Part shown: positions 34 through 15,546 of the stretch, piece by piece
Position numbering within the stretch: position 1 is the stretch's first letter
How the letters are laid out: each line of letters starts with the position of its first letter
Source: Nonlabens sp.
Lineage (GTDB): Bacteria; Bacteroidota; Bacteroidia; Flavobacteriales; Flavobacteriaceae
Direction of reading: 5' to 3'
Assembly: GCA_030731685.1 (NCBI GenBank)
Contig: JANQTO010000183.1
Location: 3,115 to 19,220 of the forward strand
Length of the DNA stretch: 16,106 bases
The notes under the pieces: generated by a model
The model's input: only the letters and a program-made list of their open reading frames with translations
Database searches by the model: none
Told to the model about the DNA's origin: nothing
Translations under genes and position numbers: made by a program

Positions 34-1305
34 ATGAACGTACTTATTCTTGGAAGCGGCGGCCGTGAGCACGCTTTTGCATATTCATTATCTAAAAGCC
101 CATTGCTTACTAACTTATTTGTTGCCCCAGGAAATGCTGGCACAAGTAATATTGCTACAAATGTTGCGTTGAATATTACAGATTTTGAGGCCGTCAAAGT
201 TTTTGTCTTGGAAAATGATATCGCTATGGTGTTGGTAGGTCCAGAGGCACCGCTGGTAGCGGGTATTTATGACTTTTTCATAGAAGATGAGCAGCTTGTA
301 CACGTGAATGTTATAGGGCCGTCTAAGCAAGCCGCAATGCTCGAAGGAAGCAAGGAGTTTGCAAAAGAATTTATGGAGCGCAACAAGGTTCCTACTGCAG
401 CTTATCAAAGTTTTACAGCCTCATCACTCAAAGAAGGAATGTCTTTTATAGATAGCTTGAAACCACCATATGTATTAAAAGCTGACGGTCTTGCCGGTGG
501 TAAAGGCGTGCTTATTATTCCAAATGCTGATGAAGCAAAGCAATCGCTAGAAGAAATGCTGGTAGGTGGCAAATTTGGCGCTGCGTCTAATAAAGTGGTG
601 ATTGAAGAATTTCTTGATGGAATAGAAATGAGCGTCTTTGTCATGACTGACGGGAAATCTTATAAAATATTACCTACCGCCAAAGATTATAAACGCATAG
701 GTGAAGGTGATACAGGGCTCAACACAGGCGGCATGGGTGCGGTTTCTCCTGTGCCATTTGCTGGTGAGGAACTCATGAAAAAAATTGAGCAGCAAGTTAT
801 TATTCCAACCATAGAGGGTTTTAAAAAAGAAGAACTGGTCTATAAGGGATTTGTTTTTATAGGATTGATGATAGTAAATAACGAGCCGCTCGTAATAGAA
901 TATAACGTGCGTATGGGCGACCCAGAGACCGAGGTTGTCTTGCCTCGTTTGAGCAGCGATTTGCTTGCGCATTTGCATGCCTTTAAAAATGAGCAATTAG
1001 ATAAAGAAGTAGTCACAATAGACGCAAGAGCTGCGGTTACGGTAATGTGCGTCTCTGGTGGTTATCCGGAAGCTTACGAAAACGGAATGGTAATTACTGG
1101 AATTGAAGAGGTAACGGACAGCATCATTTTTCATGCAGGAACCATTAGACAGGATGATAGGATAGTTACAAATGGTGGTCGTGTGCTAACGGTAACATCC
1201 TATGGAGCAAATTTCAACGAAGCACTAAAAAAATCCTATCATAATACAGCTAAGCTACATTACGATAGGATGTATTATAGAAAAGATATAGGTTTTGACC
1301 TATAA
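34..1305 (+). CDS. purD: Phosphoribosylamine--glycine ligase (GAR synthetase)
   Basis: Joins glycine to 5-phosphoribosylamine using ATP, giving glycinamide ribonucleotide, the second step of de novo purine synthesis in the cytoplasm. At 423 aa it has the usual length for single-domain PurD. Visible family signatures are the N-terminal GSGGREHA loop (residues 7-14), KADGLAGGKGV in the ATP-grasp region (about 149-159), DYKRIGEGDTGLNTGGMGA (about 218-236) and RMGDPETEVVLPRL (about 293-306), which contributes metal and ATP binding. The ATG at 34 places the nucleotide-binding loop directly at the N-terminus, as in the family. No other purine gene is adjacent. The next gene is convergent with only 4 bp between the stop codons, so purD ends its transcription unit here. 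All key motifs are intact. Confidence 0.97.
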   Translation: MNVLILGSGGREHAFAYSLSKSPLLTNLFVAPGNAGTSNIATNVALNITDFEAVKVFVLENDIAMVLVGPEAPLVAGIYDFFIEDEQLVHVNVIGPSKQAAMLEGSKEFAKEFMERNKVPTAAYQSFTASSLKEGMSFIDSLKPPYVLKADGLAGGKGVLIIPNADEAKQSLEEMLVGGKFGAASNKVVIEEFLDGIEMSVFVMTDGKSYKILPTAKDYKRIGEGDTGLNTGGMGAVSPVPFAGEELMKKIEQQVIIPTIEGFKKEELVYKGFVFIGLMIVNNEPLVIEYNVRMGDPETEVVLPRLSSDLLAHLHAFKNEQLDKEVVTIDARAAVTVMCVSGGYPEAYENGMVITGIEEVTDSIIFHAGTIRQDDRIVTNGGRVLTVTSYGANFNEALKKSYHNTAKLHYDRMYYRKDIGFDL

Positions 1306-3137: not shown

Positions 3138-4166
3138 ATGTCCACGCCACAGCGCATTTTGGTCATAAGACTCAGCGCTATGGGCGATGTAGCCATGTGC
3201 GTACCCGTACTTTTAGCTTTTAAAAGAGCAAATCCGCAGGTGGAGCTTGTTACGCTTTCGCGAAAGCGAACTAATTACATCCTACAGCAAATCTCTGGCA
3301 TTACGGTCCTAGAAGCACGCGTGCTAGATGTTCATCGTGGAATTGCCGGTATTTTCAAACTTTCCAGAGAATTACGTAAGCATAAAATCACCGCCATTGC
3401 CGACTTGCACAACGTGCTGCGCTCTAAGTTGCTGCGATTTTTTATGACTGGCACAAAAAAAGCCGCGCTGGACAAAGGTCGTTCACAAAAAAAGCGCTTA
3501 ATAAATGACCCAAATTTTTTCGAGCAATTACAGCATACCACGCAACGATATGTTGATGTATTCCGTCAGTTAGGTTATGAACTAGATCTTGTGGATACAG
3601 ATGTTTTGCCCAAAATACCGCTTGAAAATGAGATAACTAAAATTTTGGGAGCTAGTACAGTAAAAAAAATAGGTATTGCACCGTTTGCTGCGCACGCACC
3701 TAAATCGCTTACAGAAGCCCGAGCAGCAGCTCTTATTACTGAAATAAGTGCATTGCCTGAAGTTCAGGTTATCCTATTTGGTGGTGGAACACAGGAAATC
3801 ACGTTATTGGAAAAACTCGCGACTGCTGCTACAAATGTCATTTCACTAGCAGGAAAAACCACTTTCACAGCCGAATTAAGCGTAATTTCCAACCTAGACT
3901 GTATGATAGCCATGGATAGCGGCAATGGCCACCTAGCAGCCATGTATGGCGTTCCAGTTGTTACCATTTGGGGAAACACACATCCATTTGCAGGTTTCGC
4001 ACCATTTGGGCAGCCTACTGAAAACCAAATCACTGTTAACAGAGAGCAATTTCCGCTAGTTCCTACTTCCATTTTTGGGAATAGAGAAATACAGGGCTAT
4101 GCAAATGCAACAGACTCTTTTGATATGCAGCAGGTTATAGAAAGGGTAAAGGCTATTTTAGGGTAG
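3138..4166 (+). CDS. Glycosyltransferase family 9 (ADP-heptose:LPS heptosyltransferase-like)
   Basis: A 342-aa two-domain GT-B enzyme of the heptosyltransferase family, the normal length. Such enzymes move heptose from ADP-heptose onto the inner core of LPS at the cytoplasmic face of the inner membrane. The N-terminal RLSAMGDVAMCVPVL block (residues 11-25) is the acceptor-side motif. Asp17 aligns with the proposed catalytic base of WaaC-type enzymes. The C-terminal motif AMDSGNGHLAAMYGVPVVTIWG (about 258-279, Asp260 and His265) is the nucleotide-sugar site. The exact sugar and linkage cannot be read from sequence. The gene starts 1 nt after the DUF4254 stop. A perfect 16-bp palindrome (3253-3268) is embedded in the coding sequence, encoding part of LSRKR just after the second beta-strand region. 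Confidence 0.92.
   Translation: MSTPQRILVIRLSAMGDVAMCVPVLLAFKRANPQVELVTLSRKRTNYILQQISGITVLEARVLDVHRGIAGIFKLSRELRKHKITAIADLHNVLRSKLLRFFMTGTKKAALDKGRSQKKRLINDPNFFEQLQHTTQRYVDVFRQLGYELDLVDTDVLPKIPLENEITKILGASTVKKIGIAPFAAHAPKSLTEARAAALITEISALPEVQVILFGGGTQEITLLEKLATAATNVISLAGKTTFTAELSVISNLDCMIAMDSGNGHLAAMYGVPVVTIWGNTHPFAGFAPFGQPTENQITVNREQFPLVPTSIFGNREIQGYANATDSFDMQQVIERVKAILG
3253..3268. repeat. GCTTTCGCGNAAGCG palindrome, copy 1 (perfect)
   Basis: CGCTTTCGCGAAAGCG is a perfect 16-bp palindrome lying inside the GT9 gene. It is one of five related sites in the window, and the only other perfect copy is the intergenic one at 15531. Confidence 0.9.
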
Positions 4167-4200
4167 CGTATAACGGTATTATCAGTTCACTCTTATTGAA

Positions 4201-4216
4201 TTTTTTGTCATGCTGA
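4201..4216 (+). repeat. GTCATGCTGA direct repeat, copy 1
   Basis: TTTTTTGTCATGCTGA, identical over 16 bp to 4450-4465. In this copy the motif continues into a 6-bp hairpin, TCATGC-TGAG-GCATGA (4208-4223). Confidence 0.75.
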
Positions 4217-4449
4217 GGCATGATGCATCGTATCTAGCCATTCCACACAATTTCACCATAAACCTGAAACTTTTTCTCTAACCCTATAGAGTGAGGTTTC
4301 TACAATACGCGGTAAAAGGATTTGTTTCATAAAAAAGCATTTGTTTCCGCACCCTTCAGGGCTGGGGAACGGAAACATCGATATGGTTTTTGCCATAAGC
4401 GACCCTCGTGATACAATTCCTCGTACCTCGTGATGACAACCTAAGCACA

Positions 4450-4465
4450 TTTTTTGTCATGCTGA
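4450..4465 (+). repeat. GTCATGCTGA direct repeat, copy 2
   Basis: The same 16 bases as 4201-4216, in the same orientation, followed here by CGGAGGAAGCGTCGC. The flanking text is typical of the flavobacterial GTCATGCTGA-GGAGTCGAAGC intergenic repeat as I recall it. Confidence 0.75.
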
Positions 4466-4512
4466 CGGAGGAAGCGTCGCATGGAGCATTCAACAGCGTT
4501 TTATTACAAACC

Positions 4513-4524
4513 ATTAATCATTAG
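4513..4524. repeat. ATTAATCATTAG motif downstream of the A2M gene
   Basis: ATTAATCATTAG lies 27 nt beyond the A2M stop codon. The same 12 bases occur at 13881-13892 just beyond the glyQS stop, so both minus-strand genes end next to this AT-rich motif. Confidence 0.55.
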
Positions 4525-4550
4525 ACAATAAGCATTGAACATTTAAAAAC

Positions 4551-7500
4551 TTACCTAACAACCTCAATCCACTGTCCTTCTTTGCGTACCACATAATCAC
4601 CGTCATACATCGCCTCACATTGTACGCCTGGCAAGTAGTAGGTGCCTAGATAGCTAGCATTCATAACGGTTTTAAGCGTGATTGATTTTTGAGCGCCTAA
4701 ACTGAAATAATTATTCACGCGGTCGTCGCGTATGTCTGTATAGTCTACTTGTGTACTGGTTTCACTGGCTCCATATTCGGTGAAACGTGTGTTTATGATT
4801 TCCCAACCCGAGGGCAGTATTTGGGTACACGCGATGTTTTGCATGTCTACACCTGTATCGTTTGTAATGGTTGTTGTAATGATAATTTCGGTTCCTTGCG
4901 CAAGCTGGCTCACGTTGAGTGTTTTTCCGGAACGGTCTGTATAATTTACTACAGCGCGTAGCTTATTTTGTACGGTTCTTTCTTTTCCTACGGGTAATGT
5001 TCCTGTAAGCGCATTTGTAATAAACAACGTGCTGGAACCTGTGTTTTTAATGGTTACAGTTGTTGCGCCTGTTCCTATGCCTAGTTGCTGTGAAGCTATA
5101 CTTTTAGCGGTTGCAATTTGGGTCGTTTTACCGTTGTAGGTTGTACTTGCTTTCAAACCTTTGCCGCCGTTTGCTTGGGCATATTTTCCTATTGCGAGTA
5201 AACTGTAAGCAGTTGCTTGGGTGTTATAGTAATTATCTGAATCGAGCTCGCGGGCTATGTCTTCCATAAGATTGCGTGCCTTTTCAAGTTGCTTGAGTGT
5301 CACAAAGGTTTCTAGCGCCATGGCGCGGTTTCGCTGGGGTGAACCATAATTTCTATAATCATAACGTGATGGTTTGAAGTCTATGTTTGCTTTGTTTACA
5401 AGCTCGGTTGCAGCCTTGCTTTGGCCTACAAGTGCATAGGCAGCCGCAAGTCGCAGTTTACTGTCGTTTGATAGATTGTTGCTTTCGCGTAAGCGGTTCA
5501 TAGAAGATAAATCTGCTGCTCCAGCAAGCGCTAGTGTATATAATCTATACGCTTGGTTGAGGTCGTTATCACGGTCAAAGCGCCATTCTTTTGCAGCACG
5601 TTTTTGGTAGGTAATCCAGTTGCTTTTAAAGGAAACTGGCAGTTTGTAGCCAGCTTTTTCGGCCTCGAGCATGAAGTGTCCAGCGTATGTCGTTCCCCAA
5701 TCGTTTGCCTCGCCGTAGCCTGGCCAGTAGGTGAGACCACCATTAGGTTGCTGGAATTGGTCTATTTTACTTAGTGCGGCTTTAATATTCACTTCAATAT
5801 CATTGAGTGCTTTTTTATCGAGGTCTATAACTTTAGCTAAATGCAATTGTGGAAAGGCAGCACTTGTCGTTTGCTCAATGCATCCATGCGGATAACGCAC
5901 TACATAATCCAGCCTGCGTCCTAAATCCATGGCTGGCAACGTGGACACCGTAAGCACCGCACTGTTTGTTCCCGAAACACCAAATGGCTGTATGTTCAAC
6001 GTTTTAGTCTCGCCGGGTTTTAGGATTTCTTTATTGGAGATAGTTGTTGCAATATTAGGATTCACCACGTCTATCTCTGTGCTATAAACCGCACTTTCGC
6101 CACTACCGCTAGCACTTAAATCTAATTTAGCAATACCTGTTTTGTCAGCAACCTGTATGTCAAAGTATGCAATCTGGTCACCGGTTTCAGTGAAGGTCAA
6201 ACTTTGGTTTGCATTACCTAATAGTTTGAAATAGGGTGAAGATGCTAGCTTAATATTTACGTTACGTATCTTTTTATCCATGGCAAAAACGGTTATAGGT
6301 AACCTCACTGTTTCTCCTGGACTCAGCTTTCGCGGAAGCGAGGCAAGCATCATCAAAGGTTTTTTTACGGGTACTGTTTTCTCAGCATTACCGTAGGATT
6401 CTTTGTCACTATTTCCCGCCACAACCATCACGCGCACAGAACCTACGTATTGCGGTATTTTCACGGTGTGCGATTTGCGGCCGCCAGCGGGCAATTCAAA
6501 AGGTCCTAAATGCACGACCATAGGTTTGAAGCGGTTTGCTTTTTTAGCTTTGGAGGCATTTGCACTGGCATCGCCACCTATGGCAAATGCTGCTTCTATG
6601 CGGCCACCATAAGCGCCTATTACGTCATCATAAACGTCCCAAGTGCGCACACCTAGTGCCTCACGAGCAAAGAATTTATCCCAAGGATTTGGCGTTTTAT
6701 AATTTGTAATGTCCAGCAAACCTTCATCTACAATGGATAGCGTGTAGGTCATGGCCTTGCCGTTTTGCTCCTTAACCTCAATGCTGGTGGTACTTTCAGG
6801 ACGCAATTCTCCCTGCATATTGATGACAGGATTGAGGTGTGTTTCTTTATTTTCAACCAAAATAGGAATGACACCATACATGCGTAATGGCGTGTCGTTT
6901 TCTGTTTTGGCGTGTTTTTGTACGTAGGTTACATGTGCATAAACGTTAGGAACATAGTTCTCCTTGAGCGGTATGGTGACTTGTGTGTTGCCTTGCTTGG
7001 TTTCTACCCATTGTGCGTCCAGCACTTGCGTACCGTTCTCTATGGTTACAAGTAAACGACCGCCTGCTGCGGTAGGGACATTCAGTTTTGCCTGCTCGCC
7101 TACTTTGTAAGTTTCTTTGTCTGCATTAAAAAGGAGCATGGACGCGGTTGCTGGGTCTGTCTCACGGCTGTTTCCAGCCCAGTCTGGCCAGTCCACATAC
7201 ACAATTTTACCAGTAGCGTGACCGGTGCTCGGGTCATAAATGCGTACGAGGTAACGACCCCACGCCGGCTGATTTATTTTAAATTTAAAGGAACCTTTAC
7301 CGCTGTTGTTTGTACTTATTTTTGTACTATAAACTGGGTCGCGGTATTCTCGGGCCTCATATCTAGAAACGCTGCCAGACTGGCTTTGCCACCACCATCG
7401 CCAGCTTATTTGGTACACGTTGACTTCTAGATTGCTCGCTGCTCGCGCCTTTCCATACTGATCTATGCTCGCGACATTAAAAGTGTGGTCTTTGTCAGTG

Positions 7501-10061
7501 ACCAGCATATTGTTGCGCTTGTCGCCTTCTGGGGCTTGTACACCTACATAGCCAGAGTAAGGCGAAAAGGTTTTTGTAGTCACGTTTGTACTAAAATCAC
7601 CACCGTTTTCAAAAACCTTAGTCAAGAAGCTGGCTTTGAGCATTCCTGGAGCTTCTTCATTTACGGTTGGATTTAATGTTATAGCTGCAGCACCCGAATC
7701 GTTTACTGTACCATTAAAAACTTCAACTTCTTGGGTTTCAAAATCACGCGATGGGTCGTCAAATTGATATTTTTCGTAACCCTTAAAACTGGTTGCGGTA
7801 CTGTAAAATTTTGCAGTAATAGTTGCTTTTAGGTTTTTTGCAGTGGCACCGTGCAGCCACATGGTTTGTAGGTTCCCGCTAGCGCTTTGACCAGATTTAA
7901 TAATGTCTTCTTTAAAGGTAAGGTCCACTTTGAGCCTGTTGGGTTTTATGGTTTCTACCTTTACATACTTATAAAATGTTGCGCCACCTACCTGAACACG
8001 GGCGCTCCAGTTACCAGTTGGGGCATTTTCATTAGTCTTTAAATCAAACGGGTAAAAATTATTGAGGCCGCCAGTGTGCGTTTTTGTATAGACCATTTTA
8101 CCATTAGGGTCTCTTAGTTCTAAAGTTACAGGATGATTTGCAGGTAGTTTATTTTCGGCGTCGTTTAAAACGAACGTGAGGTAGATATTATCTCCAGGTC
8201 GCCATACATCGCGCTCACCGTAAATGTAACCTTTGAGTCCTTTCTCCAATTCCGTTCCTGAGGTGTCAAAGGTGCTCGTAGATAATGCAGAACCGTCGTC
8301 TAGACGTATGTAGCCATATTGCTTGCCGCTGGTTACTTTAGCAAAATAAGCTGGTTTCTTGGTTTTTACAGTTGCAAAACCATTACCGTCAGTGCGGTCG
8401 GTCGCTATTTCTTGTTGCTGGTAATTATAGAGTTGTATTTGCGCGCCGCTCATGGGAGCGGTCGTAACGATATTGCTTACGGTAAGAAAATAGGTGTTTG
8501 CACTTCCTTTTTTAACGGTGATTCCTAAATCACTGGCTAGGACATTTGTACTTACTGATTTGTCAGAGTAAAAGGTGCTGTGGCATGGGTTTTCTCGTTC
8601 TCTCCAATCATAATCATTATCGTAATAATAGTCGTCATCATAATAATAGCCTTGGCTTACATCCCAAGAACTGTCTTCTATAGTAGCATTATAATCAATT
8701 TTACGTTTTTCTTTGCCATCATTACAAGGATAAGCACTGTACGATAAATTATACTTGAACTCTACGCGATACATTGCTCCTGGGTCTGGCGCAATTATTT
8801 TACTTAAATCTATGGAATAGGTGTTCCAGCGGTTGACGTCTTTTCCGTCGCCTTGCAGGTTCAGTATTTTTCTAGCAACTGGGCGACCTACCTGTCGCAA
8901 GTTGTTTGTTTCGTTTAAGGTGTTGTTTTGTAGATATTGTAATATATTGTTTTTGTACACTTTATAAACCCACACGTCTACTGCGTTGAGGTTTACACTC
9001 TGGAAATTTATTTTCAGGTTTTGTGACGATGGCAGTATTACACCGCTGCGCACTAGTTTTATCGCAGGTTTTGTTTGCTCAAAAGCGATAAAATTACTGT
9101 AGCCGTCTTTCAAGGTATAGCCGTCTATACTTTTGATACCTTGAAAAATATCTATTTTTTTAGAACCGGTAACTGAACTTGCTATATACACTTTCAAAAG
9201 ATGCCCGTAAACTTCATATTTTAAGTCTGTCGCGTCTTCAATTTGAACAAGCCCATCAAAATTTTGAGAGGTATTTAATGGGTCTGAAAAATTTATGAGT
9301 ACGTAGTTTGTGTCCTTTTCAGACATGCGCACATCTGTAACTATAAAGGTTGTTTTACCAGGTAATGTCACCGTGGCATTACCGTTTTGTTTCACGTAGA
9401 TTGGGCTGCCGTTCCAAGAGACGAGGACATCTGCATCATTCTGCGGCCTGTTAATGCGGTCTATTTTAAATTCAAATAAGCGTGAAAGCTTATCAGTGGT
9501 TATGAAATTAATATCGAGTTTGCTTCCATCAAGTGAAGCTTCGATAAGTTTTTGTGCATCCTTACGCTCCATAAGGTCGCTGGTTGCTATCGTTCCTTTG
9601 ATATATTGTAAATCACGATTGTAAGAACCAACTGGGTCCAGCCGAACGATAAAATCCTGCTCCATTGTTTTTACATAGAATTTAAATTCCTTGTAAGTAG
9701 GAGCTACTTTTTTCACTTTCCCGAGTTTAAAAATCACTTCATATTCCTTATCCTGTGCAAGCGGTTGTGAAGGCTGAAAACTGATTGTTTGCGCGTCGAT
9801 AACGGTTGTTTCTCCCAATATGTCTGGACTTAGCGTCACTACATCATCACCTAAGACTTTTCCCGCGACCCATCCTTCAACGGGTTGTTGTAGCACGATG
9901 GTTATTGCTTCGCGTGTGGAAATACGATTGTCTGTAATTTGATAAATATGCTCCCTAAACTTAAAAAGTTCATTTTCTCGTTCCTTTGCTAGTTCTTCAG
10001 CGGTTTTTGAACAGGAAATTATTGTTAGGCAAGCGATTAGAAAATACAGGACTTTTTTCAT
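4551..10061 (-). CDS. Alpha-2-macroglobulin family lipoprotein with thioester
   Basis: A bacterial alpha-2-macroglobulin of 1836 aa, a large envelope protein thought to trap proteases, here lipid-anchored. I place the start at 10061: MKKVLYFLIACLTIISC gives a lipoprotein signal with lipid-bearing Cys17. The in-frame ATG at 10202 would add 47 residues ahead of the signal peptide. Macroglobulin beta domains fill the first two thirds (MG2-like GERDVWRPGDNIYLTF near residue 615). The A2M core holds VDEGLLDITNY and the GGRIEAAFAIGGD segment (about 1115-1165). The thioester is intact in YPHGCIEQTT (Cys1394, Gln1397) and is followed by the helical thioester domain (to about 1640) and C-terminal beta domains. 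Cysteines are few: besides Cys17 and Cys1394, C446/C493 and C1745/C1815 may form disulfides. It is longer than E. coli YfhM (about 1650 aa), and no pbpC lies next to it. Confidence 0.93.
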   Translation of the reverse strand: MKKVLYFLIACLTIISCSKTAEELAKERENELFKFREHIYQITDNRISTREAITIVLQQPVEGWVAGKVLGDDVVTLSPDILGETTVIDAQTISFQPSQPLAQDKEYEVIFKLGKVKKVAPTYKEFKFYVKTMEQDFIVRLDPVGSYNRDLQYIKGTIATSDLMERKDAQKLIEASLDGSKLDINFITTDKLSRLFEFKIDRINRPQNDADVLVSWNGSPIYVKQNGNATVTLPGKTTFIVTDVRMSEKDTNYVLINFSDPLNTSQNFDGLVQIEDATDLKYEVYGHLLKVYIASSVTGSKKIDIFQGIKSIDGYTLKDGYSNFIAFEQTKPAIKLVRSGVILPSSQNLKINFQSVNLNAVDVWVYKVYKNNILQYLQNNTLNETNNLRQVGRPVARKILNLQGDGKDVNRWNTYSIDLSKIIAPDPGAMYRVEFKYNLSYSAYPCNDGKEKRKIDYNATIEDSSWDVSQGYYYDDDYYYDNDYDWRERENPCHSTFYSDKSVSTNVLASDLGITVKKGSANTYFLTVSNIVTTAPMSGAQIQLYNYQQQEIATDRTDGNGFATVKTKKPAYFAKVTSGKQYGYIRLDDGSALSTSTFDTSGTELEKGLKGYIYGERDVWRPGDNIYLTFVLNDAENKLPANHPVTLELRDPNGKMVYTKTHTGGLNNFYPFDLKTNENAPTGNWSARVQVGGATFYKYVKVETIKPNRLKVDLTFKEDIIKSGQSASGNLQTMWLHGATAKNLKATITAKFYSTATSFKGYEKYQFDDPSRDFETQEVEVFNGTVNDSGAAAITLNPTVNEEAPGMLKASFLTKVFENGGDFSTNVTTKTFSPYSGYVGVQAPEGDKRNNMLVTDKDHTFNVASIDQYGKARAASNLEVNVYQISWRWWWQSQSGSVSRYEAREYRDPVYSTKISTNNSGKGSFKFKINQPAWGRYLVRIYDPSTGHATGKIVYVDWPDWAGNSRETDPATASMLLFNADKETYKVGEQAKLNVPTAAGGRLLVTIENGTQVLDAQWVETKQGNTQVTIPLKENYVPNVYAHVTYVQKHAKTENDTPLRMYGVIPILVENKETHLNPVINMQGELRPESTTSIEVKEQNGKAMTYTLSIVDEGLLDITNYKTPNPWDKFFAREALGVRTWDVYDDVIGAYGGRIEAAFAIGGDASANASKAKKANRFKPMVVHLGPFELPAGGRKSHTVKIPQYVGSVRVMVVAGNSDKESYGNAEKTVPVKKPLMMLASLPRKLSPGETVRLPITVFAMDKKIRNVNIKLASSPYFKLLGNANQSLTFTETGDQIAYFDIQVADKTGIAKLDLSASGSGESAVYSTEIDVVNPNIATTISNKEILKPGETKTLNIQPFGVSGTNSAVLTVSTLPAMDLGRRLDYVVRYPHGCIEQTTSAAFPQLHLAKVIDLDKKALNDIEVNIKAALSKIDQFQQPNGGLTYWPGYGEANDWGTTYAGHFMLEAEKAGYKLPVSFKSNWITYQKRAAKEWRFDRDNDLNQAYRLYTLALAGAADLSSMNRLRESNNLSNDSKLRLAAAYALVGQSKAATELVNKANIDFKPSRYDYRNYGSPQRNRAMALETFVTLKQLEKARNLMEDIARELDSDNYYNTQATAYSLLAIGKYAQANGGKGLKASTTYNGKTTQIATAKSIASQQLGIGTGATTVTIKNTGSSTLFITNALTGTLPVGKERTVQNKLRAVVNYTDRSGKTLNVSQLAQGTEIIITTTITNDTGVDMQNIACTQILPSGWEIINTRFTEYGASETSTQVDYTDIRDDRVNNYFSLGAQKSITLKTVMNASYLGTYYLPGVQCEAMYDGDYVVRKEGQWIEVVR
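5481..5495. repeat. GCTTTCGCGNAAGCG palindrome, variant copy (N=T)
   Basis: GCTTTCGCGTAAGCG lies inside the A2M coding sequence, where the minus strand encodes RLRES. It differs from the perfect palindrome at the N position and at the first flanking base. Confidence 0.75.
6326..6340. repeat. GCTTTCGCGNAAGCG palindrome, variant copy (N=G)
   Basis: GCTTTCGCGGAAGCG lies inside the A2M coding sequence, where the minus strand encodes SLPRKLS. The variant base falls at the same place on the plus strand as in the other asymmetric copies. Confidence 0.8.
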
Positions 10062-10136
10062 GCGGCGGTTGGTGAGTAATAATTTGTGATTGTGTTTAAA
10101 GTTAAATAAACTATTCGTTAAAATTAGTGATGCAAC

Positions 10137-10169
10137 CAAATTAAAATTAACCGCTTCAAAGCTGTCAAA
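10137..10169 (-). promoter_or_regulatory. Candidate promoter of the A2M gene
   Basis: On the minus strand, TTTG (10166-10169) is followed after 21 nt by TTAATTTG (10137-10144), one mismatch from TAnnTTTG. It lies about 75 nt upstream of the chosen A2M start. If correct, the transcript would begin downstream of the alternative ATG at 10202, supporting the start at 10061. The match is imperfect. Confidence 0.35.
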
Positions 10170-10219
10170 TGCTTTTAAAGGCGCGTGATTAAAATAATTC
10201 AAGAAACTTGTAGTTTTAC

Positions 10220-13200
10220 ATGCACATGAGGTTTCTAGTTATTTTCACTGCGTTTTTGTTCAGTACCGTTGCGGTTGCACAGGAATTTGCAAACCTCAAA
10301 AAGAAAAGACTGGCTGTAAGCGACAGCATACGTATAGATTCTGTAAGCATAAACGCTCGTTATTTTAAAGTTTTGGATAAAACAGGAGTGCTCGTAGATT
10401 CTACAACATACACAGTGGACTTTGCTAAATCGTTGTTGGTTTTCAAAAATACAGTTGCTGTACAGCGAGATTCTATAGACGTGGTATTCCTACCATTACC
10501 TGATTTTCTTACGAAACGCTATCAAACCTACAACCAGAGTATGGTCTTAGAAAATACCAGTAGGGTAGAGCAGCTTGTTGCACTTAAAAAACCAAAGGAA
10601 ACTGCTGCCTATGTTCCCTTTGACGGTTTGCAAACTACTGGAAGTATTACTAGAGGTTTGCGCTCCGGAAACAATCAAAACGCTGTTGTTGACTCACAAC
10701 TTGATTTACGTATTACTGGAAAACTCAACGACAAAGTTTCTTTGCGTGCTTCTATTCAAGATGCTAACGTACCACAGACCCAAAATGGTTATGCACAGCG
10801 TCTCGACGAATTTGACCAGATATTTATAGAGCTTTATAGCGATGACTGGAGCTTGCGCGCTGGTGATGTAGATGTGCAACAAACCGGTTTCCAATTCAAT
10901 AATTTCACAAAACGTGTTCAGGGTATTTCTGGGCAAATCAACTTTAACGGTGAAGACAGTTCTGGTTTTTTACGTGCTGCTGGCGCGCTGGTTCGTGGAA
11001 CGTTCAACACCAGCAGATTCACAGGGACTGAAGGTAATCAAGGTCCCTACAAACTTGTAGGTCAACGAGGTGAGCTTTTTATACTGGTTGTGTCAGGTAG
11101 CGAGCGTGTTTATGTAAACGGAGTGCTGCTCACACGTGGTGAAAACGCAGACTACGTAATTGATTACAATGCTGGTGAAGTGTTTTTTAATTCTACGTTT
11201 CCTATTACCAGTGAGATGCGTATTTCTATAGAATATCAGTTTAGTGAGCGCAATTTCACCCGATTTGTAGGCTACGCAGCCGGCGGTTTCACTACTGAAA
11301 AATTGCAGTTAGAAACCTATGGTTATACAGAAAGTGATGCAAAAAACCAGCCGCTGCAACAAAATCTGAGTCCTGAGCAGGTTGCGGTACTTGCCCAGGC
11401 AGGTGATGACCCGAGTCTTGCCACTGCGCCCAGTGCTATTAGTGACACTTTTTCTGAGAATAAAATCCTGTACCGTAAAGAAGTCATTGATGGCGTTGAA
11501 CGCTTCGTGTTTTCTCAAAATCCTATGGACGAGCTTTTTGCCGTTCGCTTTACGCTTGTAGGAGCAAACCAGGGAAATTATGTCATTGTAAACAATCAGG
11601 CAATCGCTGCGATTTATGAATATCGTGCTCCCATAAATGGCGTTCTTCAAGGAAATTATGAACCTATAATCAGGCTTTTTGCTCCTGAAGTCCTCACTAT
11701 AGCAGGCCTCAAGGCAACCTATAAACCTACCACCAGCACGCAACTTTTTACAGAATTTGCCGCCAGCAATAAAGACTTGAACAAATTCTCAAATATCGAC
11801 GATGATAACAATACCGGTATCGCCGCAAAGATTGCCATTGAACAGGAACTTAAGCCACGGGACTCGCTAAGCAGTTTGAAACTACGGGTTGATACAGACT
11901 ACATACAGACCGATTTTAGAAACGTGGAACGTGTGTATAATATCGAGTTTTCGCGTGACTGGAATTTAGTCAATACAAATGCTGACCAGCTATTTACGAC
12001 GCTAGGTTTGCAATACGTGCGCGACTCTACGTTGCAGCTTAGTTACAACTTTCAATACCTTGAATTTCAAGATACTTATGCAGGTAATAAACACGTAGTT
12101 GCAGGTAATTATACCAGTGATGGCTGGCGTTCTCGCTTTCGCGGAAGCGTACTCAACACAAGCGGTTCAGTGCTGAAAAGTCAGTTCACTAGGGCAAATG
12201 CAGCCGTGGAAAAGCGTTTTGCTAAAAATTATGTAGGAACCCGACTGGACCATGAAGACAACCAGCAACGCGATGCCGTCACCGATGCATTCACACCATT
12301 ATCTCAAAAATTTACGAGTTATGAGTTTTATGCAGGTCGTGGTGATAGTACGGCAACCTTTGTAGAAATAGGCTATCGTGGTAGGGTAAACGACAGTTTG
12401 CGCTTGGGCAATTTACAGCGCGTAAACAGGTCGCATAATTATTACACAACCTCGCAACTAATTAAAAATGAGTTTAGTAACTTACGTGTATTTGCAAACT
12501 ACCGTGTGCTCAAAAGTGAAGATGAGAGTATAGAAGACCAGCTTTCCTTTAACTCTCGAGTTCAATTTCAGCAAAAATTGTGGAAAAGCGGCGTGCTATC
12601 TAATACGACCTACGAAACAAACAGTGCCTCCATTCCACGGCAGGACTTTACCTATGTTGCCGTAAATCCTGGGCAGGGAACCTTTACTTGGATAGATTAC
12701 AATGAGGATGGCATTCAGGATTTGAACGAGTTTGAGGTCGCTCAGTTTCAAGATCAGGCAAGTTTTGTGCGCATTTTACTGCCTAACCAGCGCTTTTTAC
12801 CAACGCACCAAAACAAATTTGCACAAACGCTTACCTTAAACCCTATTGCTTGGGCAACTGCTAGCGGCATTAAAAAAGTTCTTGCCTCTTTTTATAACCA
12901 GACAGCTTACACGATAGACCGCATGGTTGCTCGTGAGGGAGCAAGTTTTGATTTGAATCCGTTTGCGCAAACTGACAACCAGCTGGGTCTAAACTTGAGT
13001 TTTAGGAACAGTTTGTTCTTTAATCGCGGGAAACAAAAGTTTACAACAAACTATACCTATTTAAGTACACAAACTGAAAACCTGCAAAGTATAGGCAGCC
13101 TAGAAAGTGATTTAGAAACCCATCAAATTACCTTTTTGCACAAACTAGGCGAGAGTTGGCTTGTTACCGTGAACGGTCAAACGGGTTTCAATGCTAGTGT

Positions 13201-13633
13201 AAGTGAGAATTTTGCAAACCGTAATTTTAAGATAGATGCGCAATTGTTCAGGCCACAAATTTCCTATTTTTTTGATGCCAGTAACAGACTTGATTTCTTT
13301 TATGAAACGCAGAACAAACAAAACGACGTAAATGATATTGCCATGCTCAATCAGCAGAACTTAGGAGTTACTTGGTCATTTACAAAGGCACAGTCATTTG
13401 CAATTAATGGCCAATTCAAATACGTAAAAAATGATTTTGAAGGACAGGCATTTTCACCTGTAGGTTTCCAAATGCTAGAAGGTTTACAACCAGGTAACAA
13501 CCTCACATGGAACCTCTTATTCCAAAAAAACATCAACAGTTTCCTAGACCTAAATTTAAGTTACAGCGGTCGTAACTCAGAAACAGCGCCTACGGTCCAT
13601 ACGGGCAGTGTGCAGATTAAGGCGTTTTTTTAG
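10220..13633 (+). CDS. Large outer-membrane beta-barrel protein of unknown function
   Basis: An 1137-aa secreted protein. MRFLVIFTAFLFSTVAVA is a Sec signal peptide with predicted cleavage AVA|QE after residue 20. A second ATG at 10226 is an equally good start and gives the same mature protein. The mature part is full of alternating polar and aromatic beta strands and ends in KAFF; a C-terminal Phe is the usual barrel assembly signal. Residues about 128-240 (GSITRGLRSGNNQNAVVDSQLDL and onward) resemble a conserved block of large Bacteroidota outer-membrane proteins, with some similarity to SprA segments. Two beta-sandwich-like modules (about 54-104 and 293-350) look related. An EF-hand-like loop, DYNEDGIQDLNE, spans residues 826-837. 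It has no TonB-box or plug domain that I can see. The gene is divergent from the A2M lipoprotein, so a joint envelope role is possible. No specific function is assigned. Confidence 0.85.
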   Translation: MHMRFLVIFTAFLFSTVAVAQEFANLKKKRLAVSDSIRIDSVSINARYFKVLDKTGVLVDSTTYTVDFAKSLLVFKNTVAVQRDSIDVVFLPLPDFLTKRYQTYNQSMVLENTSRVEQLVALKKPKETAAYVPFDGLQTTGSITRGLRSGNNQNAVVDSQLDLRITGKLNDKVSLRASIQDANVPQTQNGYAQRLDEFDQIFIELYSDDWSLRAGDVDVQQTGFQFNNFTKRVQGISGQINFNGEDSSGFLRAAGALVRGTFNTSRFTGTEGNQGPYKLVGQRGELFILVVSGSERVYVNGVLLTRGENADYVIDYNAGEVFFNSTFPITSEMRISIEYQFSERNFTRFVGYAAGGFTTEKLQLETYGYTESDAKNQPLQQNLSPEQVAVLAQAGDDPSLATAPSAISDTFSENKILYRKEVIDGVERFVFSQNPMDELFAVRFTLVGANQGNYVIVNNQAIAAIYEYRAPINGVLQGNYEPIIRLFAPEVLTIAGLKATYKPTTSTQLFTEFAASNKDLNKFSNIDDDNNTGIAAKIAIEQELKPRDSLSSLKLRVDTDYIQTDFRNVERVYNIEFSRDWNLVNTNADQLFTTLGLQYVRDSTLQLSYNFQYLEFQDTYAGNKHVVAGNYTSDGWRSRFRGSVLNTSGSVLKSQFTRANAAVEKRFAKNYVGTRLDHEDNQQRDAVTDAFTPLSQKFTSYEFYAGRGDSTATFVEIGYRGRVNDSLRLGNLQRVNRSHNYYTTSQLIKNEFSNLRVFANYRVLKSEDESIEDQLSFNSRVQFQQKLWKSGVLSNTTYETNSASIPRQDFTYVAVNPGQGTFTWIDYNEDGIQDLNEFEVAQFQDQASFVRILLPNQRFLPTHQNKFAQTLTLNPIAWATASGIKKVLASFYNQTAYTIDRMVAREGASFDLNPFAQTDNQLGLNLSFRNSLFFNRGKQKFTTNYTYLSTQTENLQSIGSLESDLETHQITFLHKLGESWLVTVNGQTGFNASVSENFANRNFKIDAQLFRPQISYFFDASNRLDFFYETQNKQNDVNDIAMLNQQNLGVTWSFTKAQSFAINGQFKYVKNDFEGQAFSPVGFQMLEGLQPGNNLTWNLLFQKNINSFLDLNLSYSGRNSETAPTVHTGSVQIKAFF
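12134..12149. repeat. GCTTTCGCGNAAGCG palindrome, variant copy (N=G)
   Basis: CGCTTTCGCGGAAGCG lies inside the barrel gene and encodes most of SRFRGS. It has a single mismatch to the perfect palindrome. Confidence 0.85.
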
Positions 13634-13659
13634 TCGCTTATTGTAACACCCAACTCTTA

Positions 13660-13679
13660 TCTTCCCTCAAAAGGGAAGA
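13660..13679. terminator. Hairpin after the barrel gene (TCTTCCCT/AGGGAAGA)
   Basis: A perfect 8-bp stem with a CAAA loop, starting 26 nt after the barrel-gene stop. No run of T follows, so it is not a classical intrinsic terminator. It could still stall RNA polymerase or protect the mRNA 3' end. Confidence 0.45.
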
Positions 13680-13847
13680 CGGTAATTTTGGATTTTCATT
13701 GACCGTGTTCTGTTGCTCGTGGTAAAGATTTTCCCTTGAGCCTGCCTGCCGGTAGGCAGGGGAAATGCCGCAGGCAATGGGTGTTGCGCAAAGAAAATCT
13801 GCTACGTTTTACCCTAGACTATGCCTTTCCTGCGATTTTACCGTCTT
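13676..13847. repeat. Imperfect nested inverted repeat, 172 bp
   Basis: Outer arms AAGACGGTAA (13676-13685) and TTACCGTCTT (13838-13847) are perfect over 10 bp. Inner arms AGATTTTC (13727-13734) and GAAAATCT (13793-13800) are perfect over 8 bp and share almost the same centre. The central GC-rich hairpin lies inside. The layout recalls a worn, gene-less inverted-repeat element, but no target-site duplication is evident. Confidence 0.5.
13730..13765. terminator. GC-rich hairpin CCTGCCTG-CCGG-TAGGCAGG
   Basis: CCTGCCTGCCGGTAGGCAGG (13741-13760) folds into an 8-bp stem with one G-T pair. Outer TTTCCC (13730-13735) and GGGAAA (13760-13765) extend it after a small bulge. This text closely resembles a short GC-rich repeat I recall from many flavobacterial intergenic regions. 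A role in bidirectional termination is inferred from the convergent setting. Confidence 0.5.
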
Positions 13848-13880
13848 AGCAACGAAAACTATTGCGATTACTTAGACCAA

Positions 13881-13910
13881 ATTAATCATTAGCCATTAAT
13901 CATTAATCAT
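13881..13910. repeat. ATTAATCATT short tandem repeats at the glyQS stop
   Basis: ATTAATCATT at 13881-13890 is followed by a second ATTAATCATT starting at 13895, and the ATTAATCAT unit begins again at 13902. The last unit overlaps the glyQS stop codon (13907-13909). The ATTAATCATTAG form matches 4513-4524. Confidence 0.6.
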
Positions 13911-15460
13911 TTCGAAATCTTCTTCAACAATACCGTCATACTAACGCGTTCCTCTAAATAATTTTTGAGGTCTTTAATCGCCACACGTTCTTGGGTCATT
14001 GTGTCTCGATCGCGCACGGTAACTGCGTGGTCTTCTTTAGTATCGTGGTCTATGGTGACGCAAAACGGTGTGCCGTTTGCATCTTGTCTACGGTAACGTC
14101 GGCCTATAGCGTCTTTCTCGTCATACTGCACTTTCATGGACCATTTAAGCTCTTCGATAATCTCGTTTGCTATTTCTGGCAAGCCATCTTTTTTGAGCAA
14201 TGGCAAGATTGCTGCCTTCACCGGTGCAAGCGCGACTGGCAGTTTGAGAACGGTGCGCTCGCTGCCGTCTTCGAGTGTTTCATCTTGCAGTGCGTTTGAG
14301 AAAATAGCAAGGAACATACGGTCTAAACCTATAGATGTTTCGAGAACATAAGGAACATAACTGCTATTTGTTTCATGGTCAAAAAACTGTAGTTTTTTAC
14401 CACTGTATTCTTCATGAGCCTTCAAGTCAAAGTCTGTACGTGAGTGAATACCTTCTAGTTCTTTAAAGCCAAAAGGGAAATTAAACTCAATATCGGTCGC
14501 GGCGTTTGCATAGTGTGCGAGTTTCTCGTGGTCGTGAAAGCGGTAATTACTTGCGTCCATACCCAGCGCTCTGTGCCATGCCATACGGCGCTCTTTCCAA
14601 ATCTTGAACCACTCCAGTTCCGTTCCTGGTTTTACAAAATATTGCATTTCCATTTGTTCAAACTCACGCTGGCGGAATATGAACTGGCGCGCTACAATCT
14701 CGTTTCTAAAAGCTTTACCTGTTTGCGCAATTCCAAACGGTATTTTCATACGTCCAGACTTCTGTACGTTTAAAAAGTTTACAAAAATTCCTTGTGCTGT
14801 TTCTGGTCGTAGGTATAAATCGGTTGCAGTGTCGGCACTTGCGCCTAGTTTGGTGCCAAACATGAGATTAAACTGGCGTACGTCTGTCCAGTTTTTAGAG
14901 CCTGTGTCTGGGTCGGCAATTTCTAGTTCTTCTATGAGTGCTTTAACTCCAGCAAGGTCTTCTGCCTCCAGTAATCTTGCAAGACGTTCCACAGGTTCTT
15001 TTGCGGCTTTTAAATAGCCCATGACGCGCTCATTTGTCTGGCGGTACATGTCTGCATCAAAACTTTCGCCAAAACGTTTTGCAGCTTTCTCAACCTCTTT
15101 TTCGGCTTTGAGACGTTGTTTCTCGCAGTAATCTTCTACAAGCACGTCAGCACGATAGCGTTTTTTACTGTCTTTATTATCTATTAACGGGTCATTGAAC
15201 GCATCTACGTGACCACTCGCTTTCCAGGTGGTAGGATGCATAAAAATAGCAGCATCTATTCCTACAATGTCCTGATTAAGCTGCGTCATGGCTTGCCACC
15301 AGTACTCGCGTATATTTTTTTTGAGCTCAGCACCATTCTGACCATAGTCATAAACTGCTTGTAGCCCATCGTAAATTTCGCTAGATTGAAATACATATCC
15401 GTACTCCTTTGCGTGTGAGAGTACCTTTTTAAACTGGTCGGTGTCGTTAGTTTGTGCCAT
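13907..15460 (-). CDS. glyQS: Glycine--tRNA ligase, single-chain (alpha2) type
   Basis: Charges tRNA-Gly with glycine in the cytoplasm. At 517 aa it is the homodimeric class II form, often labelled glyS in annotations, not the split GlyQ/GlyS form. The N-terminus (FKKVLSHAKEYGYVFQSSEIYDG) is the family's conserved opening, which fixes the start at 15460. Class II motif 2 is AFRNEIVARQFIFRQREFEQME (about residues 250-271, with Arg252). GFKELEGIHSRTDFDL is a glycine-site segment. Motif 3 is SIGLDRMFLAIF (near 375-386). The C-terminal anticodon-binding domain begins near LPVALAPVKAAILPLL. A charged helical insertion occupies about 84-195. Between SGHVDAFNDPLID and RYRAD there is no Cys pair. A TAnnTTTG box lies only 5 nt upstream of the ATG, suggesting a very short leader. 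Confidence 0.97.
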   Translation of the reverse strand: MAQTNDTDQFKKVLSHAKEYGYVFQSSEIYDGLQAVYDYGQNGAELKKNIREYWWQAMTQLNQDIVGIDAAIFMHPTTWKASGHVDAFNDPLIDNKDSKKRYRADVLVEDYCEKQRLKAEKEVEKAAKRFGESFDADMYRQTNERVMGYLKAAKEPVERLARLLEAEDLAGVKALIEELEIADPDTGSKNWTDVRQFNLMFGTKLGASADTATDLYLRPETAQGIFVNFLNVQKSGRMKIPFGIAQTGKAFRNEIVARQFIFRQREFEQMEMQYFVKPGTELEWFKIWKERRMAWHRALGMDASNYRFHDHEKLAHYANAATDIEFNFPFGFKELEGIHSRTDFDLKAHEEYSGKKLQFFDHETNSSYVPYVLETSIGLDRMFLAIFSNALQDETLEDGSERTVLKLPVALAPVKAAILPLLKKDGLPEIANEIIEELKWSMKVQYDEKDAIGRRYRRQDANGTPFCVTIDHDTKEDHAVTVRDRDTMTQERVAIKDLKNYLEERVSMTVLLKKISK

Positions 15461-15465
15461 AGTTG

Positions 15466-15473
15466 CAAATGTA
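15466..15473 (-). promoter_or_regulatory. Putative -7 promoter box of glyQS (TACATTTG)
   Basis: On the minus strand TACATTTG is a perfect TAnnTTTG, but it ends only 5 nt before the glyQS ATG. A start site at the normal distance would give an almost leaderless mRNA. No -33 TTG is seen at the expected distance, so this may be a chance match. Confidence 0.3.
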
Positions 15474-15530
15474 AAAAATAGGGTGCTATGCTGCTAGGTC
15501 TTTTTAGATATTTAGTGATGTTGGTTATTT

Positions 15531-15546
15531 CGCTTTCGCGAAAGCG
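15531..15546. repeat. GCTTTCGCGNAAGCG palindrome, intergenic copy (perfect)
   Basis: CGCTTTCGCGAAAGCG, the same 16 bases as 3253-3268 and again followed by AAC. This is the only copy in non-coding DNA, between divergent glyQS and the GT-C gene, 77 bp upstream of the latter. Confidence 0.9.

Follow-up and report, generated by a model that had tools for sequence, protein, structure and literature searches.

The window analyzed here, a 16,106-nt stretch of Nonlabens sp. DNA (assembly GCA_030731685.1, contig JANQTO010000183.1, positions 3,115 to 19,220), carries five copies of a 16-bp perfect palindrome, CGCTTTCGCGAAAGCG, a genome-wide, DNA-level site that is most likely recognized by a protein. 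Site 1 (3253..3268), an exact palindrome, lies inside a GT9 glycosyltransferase gene (3138..4166, + strand; PF01075), where its codons read LSRKR. Sites 2 (5480..5495) and 3 (6325..6340), with two mismatches each, lie inside a bacterial alpha-2-macroglobulin (A2M) gene (4551..10202, - strand; PF07703, PF00207, and bMG domains) and read RLRES and LPRKL, respectively; the 845 bp separating them within this gene form the one short gap of the window. Site 4 (12134..12149; one mismatch) reads RFRGS in the gene of a 1137-aa protein with no Pfam match (10220..13633, + strand). Site 5 (15531..15546), again exact, precedes the listed start codon side of a glycyl-tRNA synthetase gene (13907..15460, - strand; PF00587 and PF03129) by about 70 nt on its upstream side, and a mechanical 152-aa open reading frame (ORF) spans it too. 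No strand is assigned to any of the sites, and sites 1 and 5, being fully palindromic, match on both strands.

All five copies listed in an earlier note on this DNA were found at their places, and no match occurred in 200 dinucleotide-preserving shuffles of the window. The note's observations that four copies lie in the coding sequence of three genes and that they encode different peptides were likewise borne out. In the open-access literature searched, there was no report of such a motif in Nonlabens; the longer motif centers (12 and 14 letters) were absent, and the ten papers containing the 10-letter center TTTCGCGAAA were not about such a motif by title or abstract.

The window's own genome is a 2.50-Mb draft (77% complete). 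The 15-mer pattern of the earlier note, which had proposed a genome-wide site, matched it 429 times per strand, and the reversed-pattern control gave 0 matches. The pattern was also present in all 22 other Nonlabens genomes (248 to 814 forward matches). Neither outcome that the note had named as refuting its proposal, a genome count at background level or a lack of the motif in close relatives, was seen. Forward and reverse counts were nearly equal; runs of forward-only matches were a listing effect, the DNA showing palindromes, and strand polarity of the sites was rejected. Of 36 relatives outside the genus (13 from the family and 23 from the order), one, G033, was matched, 6 times forward and 5 times in reverse, all within a single contig. 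Relatives were named with glycyl-tRNA synthetase as the marker, and the nearest named ones (87 to 89%) were Flavobacteria bacterium BBFL7, Nonlabens ulvanivorans, N. xylanidelens, and an uncultured Nonlabens, which places the window's genome in Nonlabens. Among 40 genomes taken from the named loci (40 of 80 loci covered), four Nonlabens/BBFL7 genomes, which by their equal counts are G001, G003, G007, and G013 again, had 457 to 625 forward matches; the other 36 had 0 to 6, with five above zero.

A scan of 299 Flavobacteriaceae genomes for the exact 16-mer gave a match in 38. Three Nonlabens genomes held 384 to 579 copies, G290 held 630, and G274 held 153; low counts were found in G160 and G370, which belong to one genus (12 and 13), in G135 (11), and in 30 others (1 to 4). 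A 20-kb sample of G290 contained four exact copies and three with two mismatches. Two 20-kb samples of G274 contained two and three exact copies, respectively; copies with one or two mismatches numbered two in the first sample and three in the second. Both genomes therefore carry the system. The note's statement on similar motifs in some marine Flavobacteriaceae was right, for one genus and two further genomes. A glycyl-tRNA synthetase tree built from 45 of 92 rows showed G290 and G274 as sisters (98/93), and a single clade of Nonlabens, G290, and G274 was not rejected by this marker (approximately unbiased test, P = 0.26). A quick 92-row tree, in which the named Nonlabens rows were left out of the trait group, placed the two genomes apart. 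A single old origin of the motif system in Nonlabens, G290, and G274 is possible on these trees. No rival motif was seen in other genera in single 8- to 20-kb samples of ten genomes, with G033 counted once, from which rarer motifs would escape; four further genomes that yielded 1.5 kb or less were left out. A repeated 14-mer in G024 was rejected as it lies within a protein repeat, and that of G027 was rejected as it recurs at multiples of 75 bp.

The recognition unit was delineated in BBFL7: of the sites in 1.12 Mb, 145 were exact, 72 had one mismatch, and 21 had two. The first 26 stretches alone contained 65, 32, and 8, respectively, and in those stretches none of 30 palindromes shuffled from this composition had a copy with 0 to 2 mismatches. 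Of the 72 single-mismatch sites, 44 carried their change in the outermost pair and 18 in the pair that includes the N of the earlier pattern, which is therefore one of two tolerant base pairs. The half CGCTTTCG occurred 9 times outside full sites, compared with 10.5 expected from base composition. Because lone halves are not above expectation, the whole palindrome is the unit, with both half-sites needed together. The core carries 31.5 bits of information (196 sites; inflated, as the sites were picked by similarity), compared with the 12.2 bits sufficient to locate the sites. Its flanks are weak and symmetric: T-rich at 10 to 11 and 14 to 20 bp from the center (T at 17 in 64%), with A at 12, G at 22, and a left arm that avoids C. 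Pairing between the flank arms within sites was at chance (1,579 of 4,900 versus 1,580 ± 29 when shuffled), and only 1 of 21 change pairs in two-mismatch sites was compensatory. With arms unpaired and double mismatches noncompensatory, the duplex rather than a hairpin seems to be read, and a hairpin or RNA structure was rejected for the lack of flank covariation and of compensatory double changes.

The sites are evenly spaced along the chromosome. A contiguous 500-kb part of BBFL7 held 116 sites, and the coefficient of variation (CV) of their gaps was 0.47, versus 0.99 for random placement, and none of 5,000 simulations was as low; two gaps were shorter than 1.5 kb, versus 33.7 expected. Without one 18.9-kb gap that includes 8.6 kb of N, the CV fell to 0.36. 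Genome G016, of a second species, gave a CV of 0.37 (200 kb, 48 sites). Five runs, cut so as to exclude the assembly gap and two site-free islands, were pooled; their 207 gaps had a mean of 4,266 bp, a CV of 0.36, and a 99th percentile of 8.6 kb, and neighboring gaps were weakly anticorrelated (rho = -0.15, P = 0.04). Over 56 BBFL7 stretches, the number of sites per 20 kb had a mean of 4.25 and a variance of 1.79. Exact copies alone were less evenly spaced (CV of 0.80 in BBFL7 [P = 0.03] and 0.59 in G016), so the near copies close the gaps and act as sites themselves. A toy model was run that removes a site except where the merged gap would exceed 6 kb; it reproduced the mean (4.3 to 4.5 kb) and the CV (0.31 to 0.39) and yielded more short gaps (4 to 8% under 1.5 kb, versus 4 of 207 observed). 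As a control, 42 gaps between Chi sites in 200 kb of Escherichia coli K-12 had a mean of 4.4 kb and a CV of 1.03, random placement giving about 1. The earlier note had also listed chromosome segregation as a candidate function. With parB at 331 kb of contig C2 as a stand-in for the origin of BBFL7, whose genome is in two scaffolds, the site count showed no significant dependence on parB distance in 50 stretches of that contig (rho = 0.20, P = 0.16; class means of 3.6 to 4.6), and segregation linked to the origin or terminus is thus disfavored.

Placement relative to genes was permissive, with enrichment of sites between genes. By a crude ORF prediction, 99 of the 238 BBFL7 sites were not wholly inside predicted ORFs, which leave 9.6% of the DNA, and 139 were inside. 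In-frame readings were dominated by AFAKA (81), followed by RFRES (34) and LSRKR (24). Intergenic density was highest between divergent genes (1.11 sites per kb), lower between tandem genes (0.80), and lowest between convergent genes (0.54); a terminator role was rejected on this ground. Site counts of the BBFL7 stretches correlated with GC content (rho = 0.41, P = 0.0015). Two stretches of contig C2 (BBFL7 genome G059; L241 and L242) are site free, from its start to 21.0 kb and from 117.8 to 139.9 kb. The 20-kb samples within both had a GC content of 0.32, and 7 of 10 scanned proteins had Pfam matches, with families including reverse transcriptase, MORN, Reg_prop repeats, AAA_21, RHS, beta-lactamase family, and epimerase. 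These stretches would be accessory islands, possibly defense or variable ones.

Orthologous genes show how the sites evolve. Of the sites in 14 relatives, 33 were mappable to the seven genes of the window, and these fall at only five codon positions. Counting the window as a row, a site with at most two mismatches occurs at GT9 codon 42 in 11 of 12 rows; at A2M codon 1532, the place of site 2, 8 of 15 rows have one, which is an exact copy in two of them; at A2M codon 1250, the place of site 3, one with at most two mismatches occurs in 9 of 15 rows, the peptide LPRKL being constant in all rows; and codon 641 of the 1137-aa gene has a site in 4 of 4 rows covering the place. The fifth position, codon 318 of the phosphoribosylglycinamide synthetase gene purD (34..1305, + strand), is siteless in the window and has a site in 5 of 9 aligned relatives, or 5 of 10 rows with the window. 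The A2M orthologues are 58 to 65% identical, so that sites persist at the same codons across species about 60% identical in protein. At all five places, siteless orthologues differ by substitution, without an indel of site length, and at the purD place the protein changes along with the DNA (HAFAKAEL versus NAFATTSL and HAFKNEQL). In the parB gene, 15 of 17 Nonlabens loci have a site at the same position (L311 to L330 set; only site positions were taken from this alignment, and loci on the - strand were mirrored by hand). The counts, the substitutions at orthologous positions, and the lack of lone half-sites together agree with the earlier claim that DNA rather than peptide is kept. General conservation was not shown by a small comparison of sites in the window's own genome with the BBFL7 sample: of 17 distinct sites (9 outside ORFs and 8 coding), 3 of the 8 coding ones had a match, and 1 of these 3 kept the site. 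The same orthologue test on sites of G290 and G274 yielded one gene with matches and no site in it.

Phages differ in whether they carry the motif. The Nonlabens (Persicivirga) phages P12024S and P12024L (35.7 kb each), in which no integrase is annotated and most genes are hypothetical, contain no site with up to three mismatches. When viral contigs were searched with the exact 16-mer, by contrast, 41 stretches of 30 contigs came up, with 80 sites in 420 kb. At up to two mismatches, 21 of the 30 contigs had at least two sites and nine had one; eight of the latter have a GC content of 0.48 to 0.67 and look like chance. The 21 multisite contigs form about ten groups by common 31-mers. Fifteen of them, together with pieces of an earlier scan, held 57 sites in 267 kb, or 24 after removal of one per stretch; because the contigs were picked by the motif, these densities are biased upwards. 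Among ten large proteins of the viral contigs, two belonged to a phage transposase family, one was an integrase, one a tape-measure protein, and one a terminase, three belonged to families of unknown function, and two matched nothing; one transposase had no Pfam match in a separate scan. A prophage like viral contig L185 gave one distant match among 23 Nonlabens genomes, which leaves any assignment of these contigs to Nonlabens hosts tentative.

The motif is placed so evenly and kept so well that it resembles an address label for the DNA of the cell itself, most likely an uptake signal by which kin exchange DNA. We favor, with moderate confidence, the reading that CGCTTTCGCGAAAGCG is a self-DNA uptake or recognition signal of a Flavobacteriaceae lineage, of the same kind as the uptake signal sequences (USS) of Pasteurellaceae and the DNA uptake sequences (DUS) of Neisseriaceae. 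This preference rests on four features that together make up the published signature of uptake sequences: even spacing, permissive positions, conservation, and the contrast among phages (PMC2397512, PMC7811141, PMC1939737, PMC6776037). USS are evenly distributed, the expected outcome of drive (PMC7811141), and the account of neisserial DUS in PMC2397512 places them at conserved, permissive positions of the core genome and reports them absent from recent acquisitions. Phages of Pasteurellaceae are split in a similar manner, those lysogenizing the family being described as USS rich and the USS-poor ones as including all large, likely lytic phages; one prophage cluster of the family is also described as lacking USS (PMC6776037). 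Within the Flavobacteriales, Riemerella columbina prefers its own DNA and has an enriched k-mer of candidate role (PMC7965970). Of the functions that the earlier note had listed, DNA uptake best fits the spacing, intergenic, and phage patterns; nucleoid organization remains in play, and modification, like segregation, is disfavored.

Under the uptake reading, a symmetric, probably dimeric receptor of the uptake pathway would bind the 16-bp duplex, with a weaker preference for T-rich flanks up to about 25 bp from the center. Fragments bearing a site would be preferentially taken up and then recombined into the chromosome, and for that reason sites would spread and be kept: those arising by point mutation in permissive places would persist until nearly each 6-kb stretch has one, and surplus nearby sites would decay.

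The motif shares with Pasteurellaceae USS a genome-wide, dense, and even distribution in genic and intergenic DNA, with under-representation in coding sequence (PMC7811141, PMC6776037), and with Neisseriaceae DUS highly conserved sites at permissive core-genome positions (PMC2397512). USS are also under-represented in new DNA (PMC7811141, PMC6776037), a pattern matched by the two site-free stretches of BBFL7 but not by the stretches around mobile-type ParB genes. Phage HP1 carries the USS core 17 times over 32 kb, spaced with a CV of 0.51 (P = 0.003). The USS core is 9 bp. Unlike USS, which are asymmetric, occur about once per kb, and depend on type IV pili, the motif is a 16-bp palindrome found once per ~4.3 kb in genomes that mostly lack the type IV pilus (T4P) ATPase. 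It also differs from DUS, which are nonpalindromic and have the pilin receptor ComP; many recent DUS seem to arise by recombination. In Campylobacter jejuni, the uptake mark is a short methylated palindrome.

Several points weigh against an uptake signal. The known USS and DUS systems work through type IV pili, and the type II secretion system (T2SS)/T4P ATPase (PF00437) was above the cutoff in 3 of 23 Nonlabens genomes only (G004, G007, and G015); to our knowledge, competent Riemerella also has no type IV pilus. ComEC, found in 23 of 23 Nonlabens genomes, favors uptake but does not explain the genus restriction because 31 of 36 relatives outside the genus have it as well. A palindrome whose halves do not occur alone looks like the site of a cytoplasmic dimer. 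Acquired DNA is not always site poor, since five 20-kb stretches around mobile-type ParB genes of about 600 aa (G014, G018, and G019) hold 15 sites over their 100 kb. With 67% of their 31-mers in common, the two site-free phages amount to roughly a single case. USS and DUS, as described in PMC1939737 and PMC12616744, are not palindromes, and the even spacing of USS was at one time read as pointing to replication, repair, or compaction (PMC1939737). In the R. columbina study, which also reports that Campylobacter jejuni takes up methylated DNA, Flavobacterium johnsoniae was described as not competent (PMC7965970).

The strongest rival, possible but on balance unlikely in our view, holds that a dimeric nucleoid-associated protein binds the palindrome and anchors or loads something each ~4 kb (loop anchors, clamp loading, or nucleoid occlusion), selection holding the largest unbound stretch below ~6 to 9 kb. 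A perfect palindrome with both halves needed and wide symmetric flanks would suit a cytoplasmic homodimer, 16-bp palindromes being typical of ParB/Noc-type sites; evenly placed sites with few short gaps are what covering the chromosome would call for, and the lack of a trend with parB distance on contig C2 is also compatible. However, there is no genus-wide additional ParB_N protein: 20 of 23 Nonlabens genomes have one, and the extra copies in G014, G018, and G019 are about 600 aa long. Furthermore, chromosome organization alone does not predict a phage site density about equal to that of the host. No parS-like 16-mer with up to two mismatches occurred within ~1.5 kb around parB in 30 loci, in carriers or noncarriers. 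The parS, Noc, and matS sites are palindromes of similar size bound by dimers, few and clustered by origin or terminus; the motif sites differ in numbering hundreds and in having no origin trend. Chi of E. coli has a similar density (mean gap of 4.4 kb) but is an asymmetric, oriented octamer with random spacing, whereas the motif is a palindrome and even.

In a rather unlikely but distinctive reading, a chromosome-wide periodic address system without known parallel would have a dimeric protein read a ~30-bit palindrome each ~4 kb. To be accepted, kept, or packaged as self, DNA would need a site in every stretch beyond ~6 to 9 kb, and resident phages and integrative and conjugative elements (ICEs) would have evolved to carry it.

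An improbable alternative is a self mark read by a DNA-degrading or defense system, to which DNA siteless over several kb would be foreign; resident phages and ICEs would gain sites to pass as self, and other phages would evade otherwise. The excess of core information over what is needed would suit discrimination from all environmental DNA, and the site-rich viral contigs do contrast with the two site-free phages. Nevertheless, those two phages infect the genus, site-free stretches of at least 21 to 22 kb are tolerated, and no candidate effector turned up, without a systematic search for one.

Modification, which the earlier note had also suggested, is disfavored, since each of two DNA methyltransferase families is missing from a large share of the carrier genomes: PF00145 was present in 14 of 23 Nonlabens genomes and absent in 9, PF01555 was above the cutoff in 11 of 23, and four carriers at least 93% complete (G007, G008, G010, and G011) had neither above the cutoff. 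It is highly improbable that the motif is a palindrome like cyanobacterial HIP1 (GCGATCGC), made or kept by a DNA methyltransferase together with repair, with an inner sequence (for example, CGCG or TCGCGA) as their target. HIP1 is likewise an over-represented, lineage-wide, GC-rich palindrome gained and spread by substitution in coding and noncoding DNA (PMC4390886), but it is 8 bp long, tied to a methyltransferase, and found once per 1,131 bp in Synechocystis (PMC6604393). Here, PF00145 and PF01555 are not common to all carriers (PF02086 and PF02384 were outside the test), and 16 bp far exceeds the length of a methyltransferase target. ParB, the type IV pilus, and the C5 and N4/N6 methyltransferases were rejected as partners for being not genus-wide or not genus-specific, and none of the proteins tested (ParB_N, PF00437, ComEC, PF00145, and PF01555) was universal in carriers and missing elsewhere. 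An interspersed repeat (repetitive extragenic palindrome or miniature inverted-repeat transposable element), terminator, or hairpin element would account for a short palindrome in hundreds of copies but can practically be dismissed, given no site-length insertion at the five orthologous places, flank arms unpaired beyond chance with 1 of 21 double changes compensatory, 139 of 238 sites inside predicted ORFs, and convergent intergenic regions poorest in sites.

Uptake sequences are established in two proteobacterial families, and none is described for Bacteroidota in the open-access literature searched. If the uptake reading is true, the 16-mer could serve as bait for the uptake receptor of Bacteroidota and would mark natural transformation in a marine bacterial group. 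Should the palindrome turn out to be a nucleoid site, its regularity would be unusual for a protein site spread along the whole chromosome. With either reading, the motif is a tag for spotting phages, ICEs, and transferred DNA of these hosts in metagenomes.

Several such elements were noticed. Four motif-rich viral contigs (3300040781_000495, 3300040769_000041, 3300040801_002026, and 3300035698_008001) have a GC content of 0.45 to 0.47, near that of carrier G274 (0.47), and most others are at 0.36 to 0.43; motif plus GC content may reveal the host genus of such phages. In G033, contig C18 from 75 to 95 kb (L291) is a mobile-type segment with motif copies, a 598-aa ParB-domain protein, and genes that by eye look metal-efflux-like. 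Among the noncarriers G162, G171, G185, G195, G228, and G368, several have the same distances between copies (933, 2,446 to 2,481, and 3,460 bp). These common distances look like one mobile element, as if a Nonlabens-like ICE family had spread through Flavobacteriaceae. Finally, in an uncultured Aquimarina (G074, contig C4, 215 to 235 kb; L299), five sites in 8 kb accompany an operon that by eye appears efflux-like, with a TetR-type regulator, and adjoins a phage-integrase-family gene; this block is probably a transfer from a carrier into Aquimarina.

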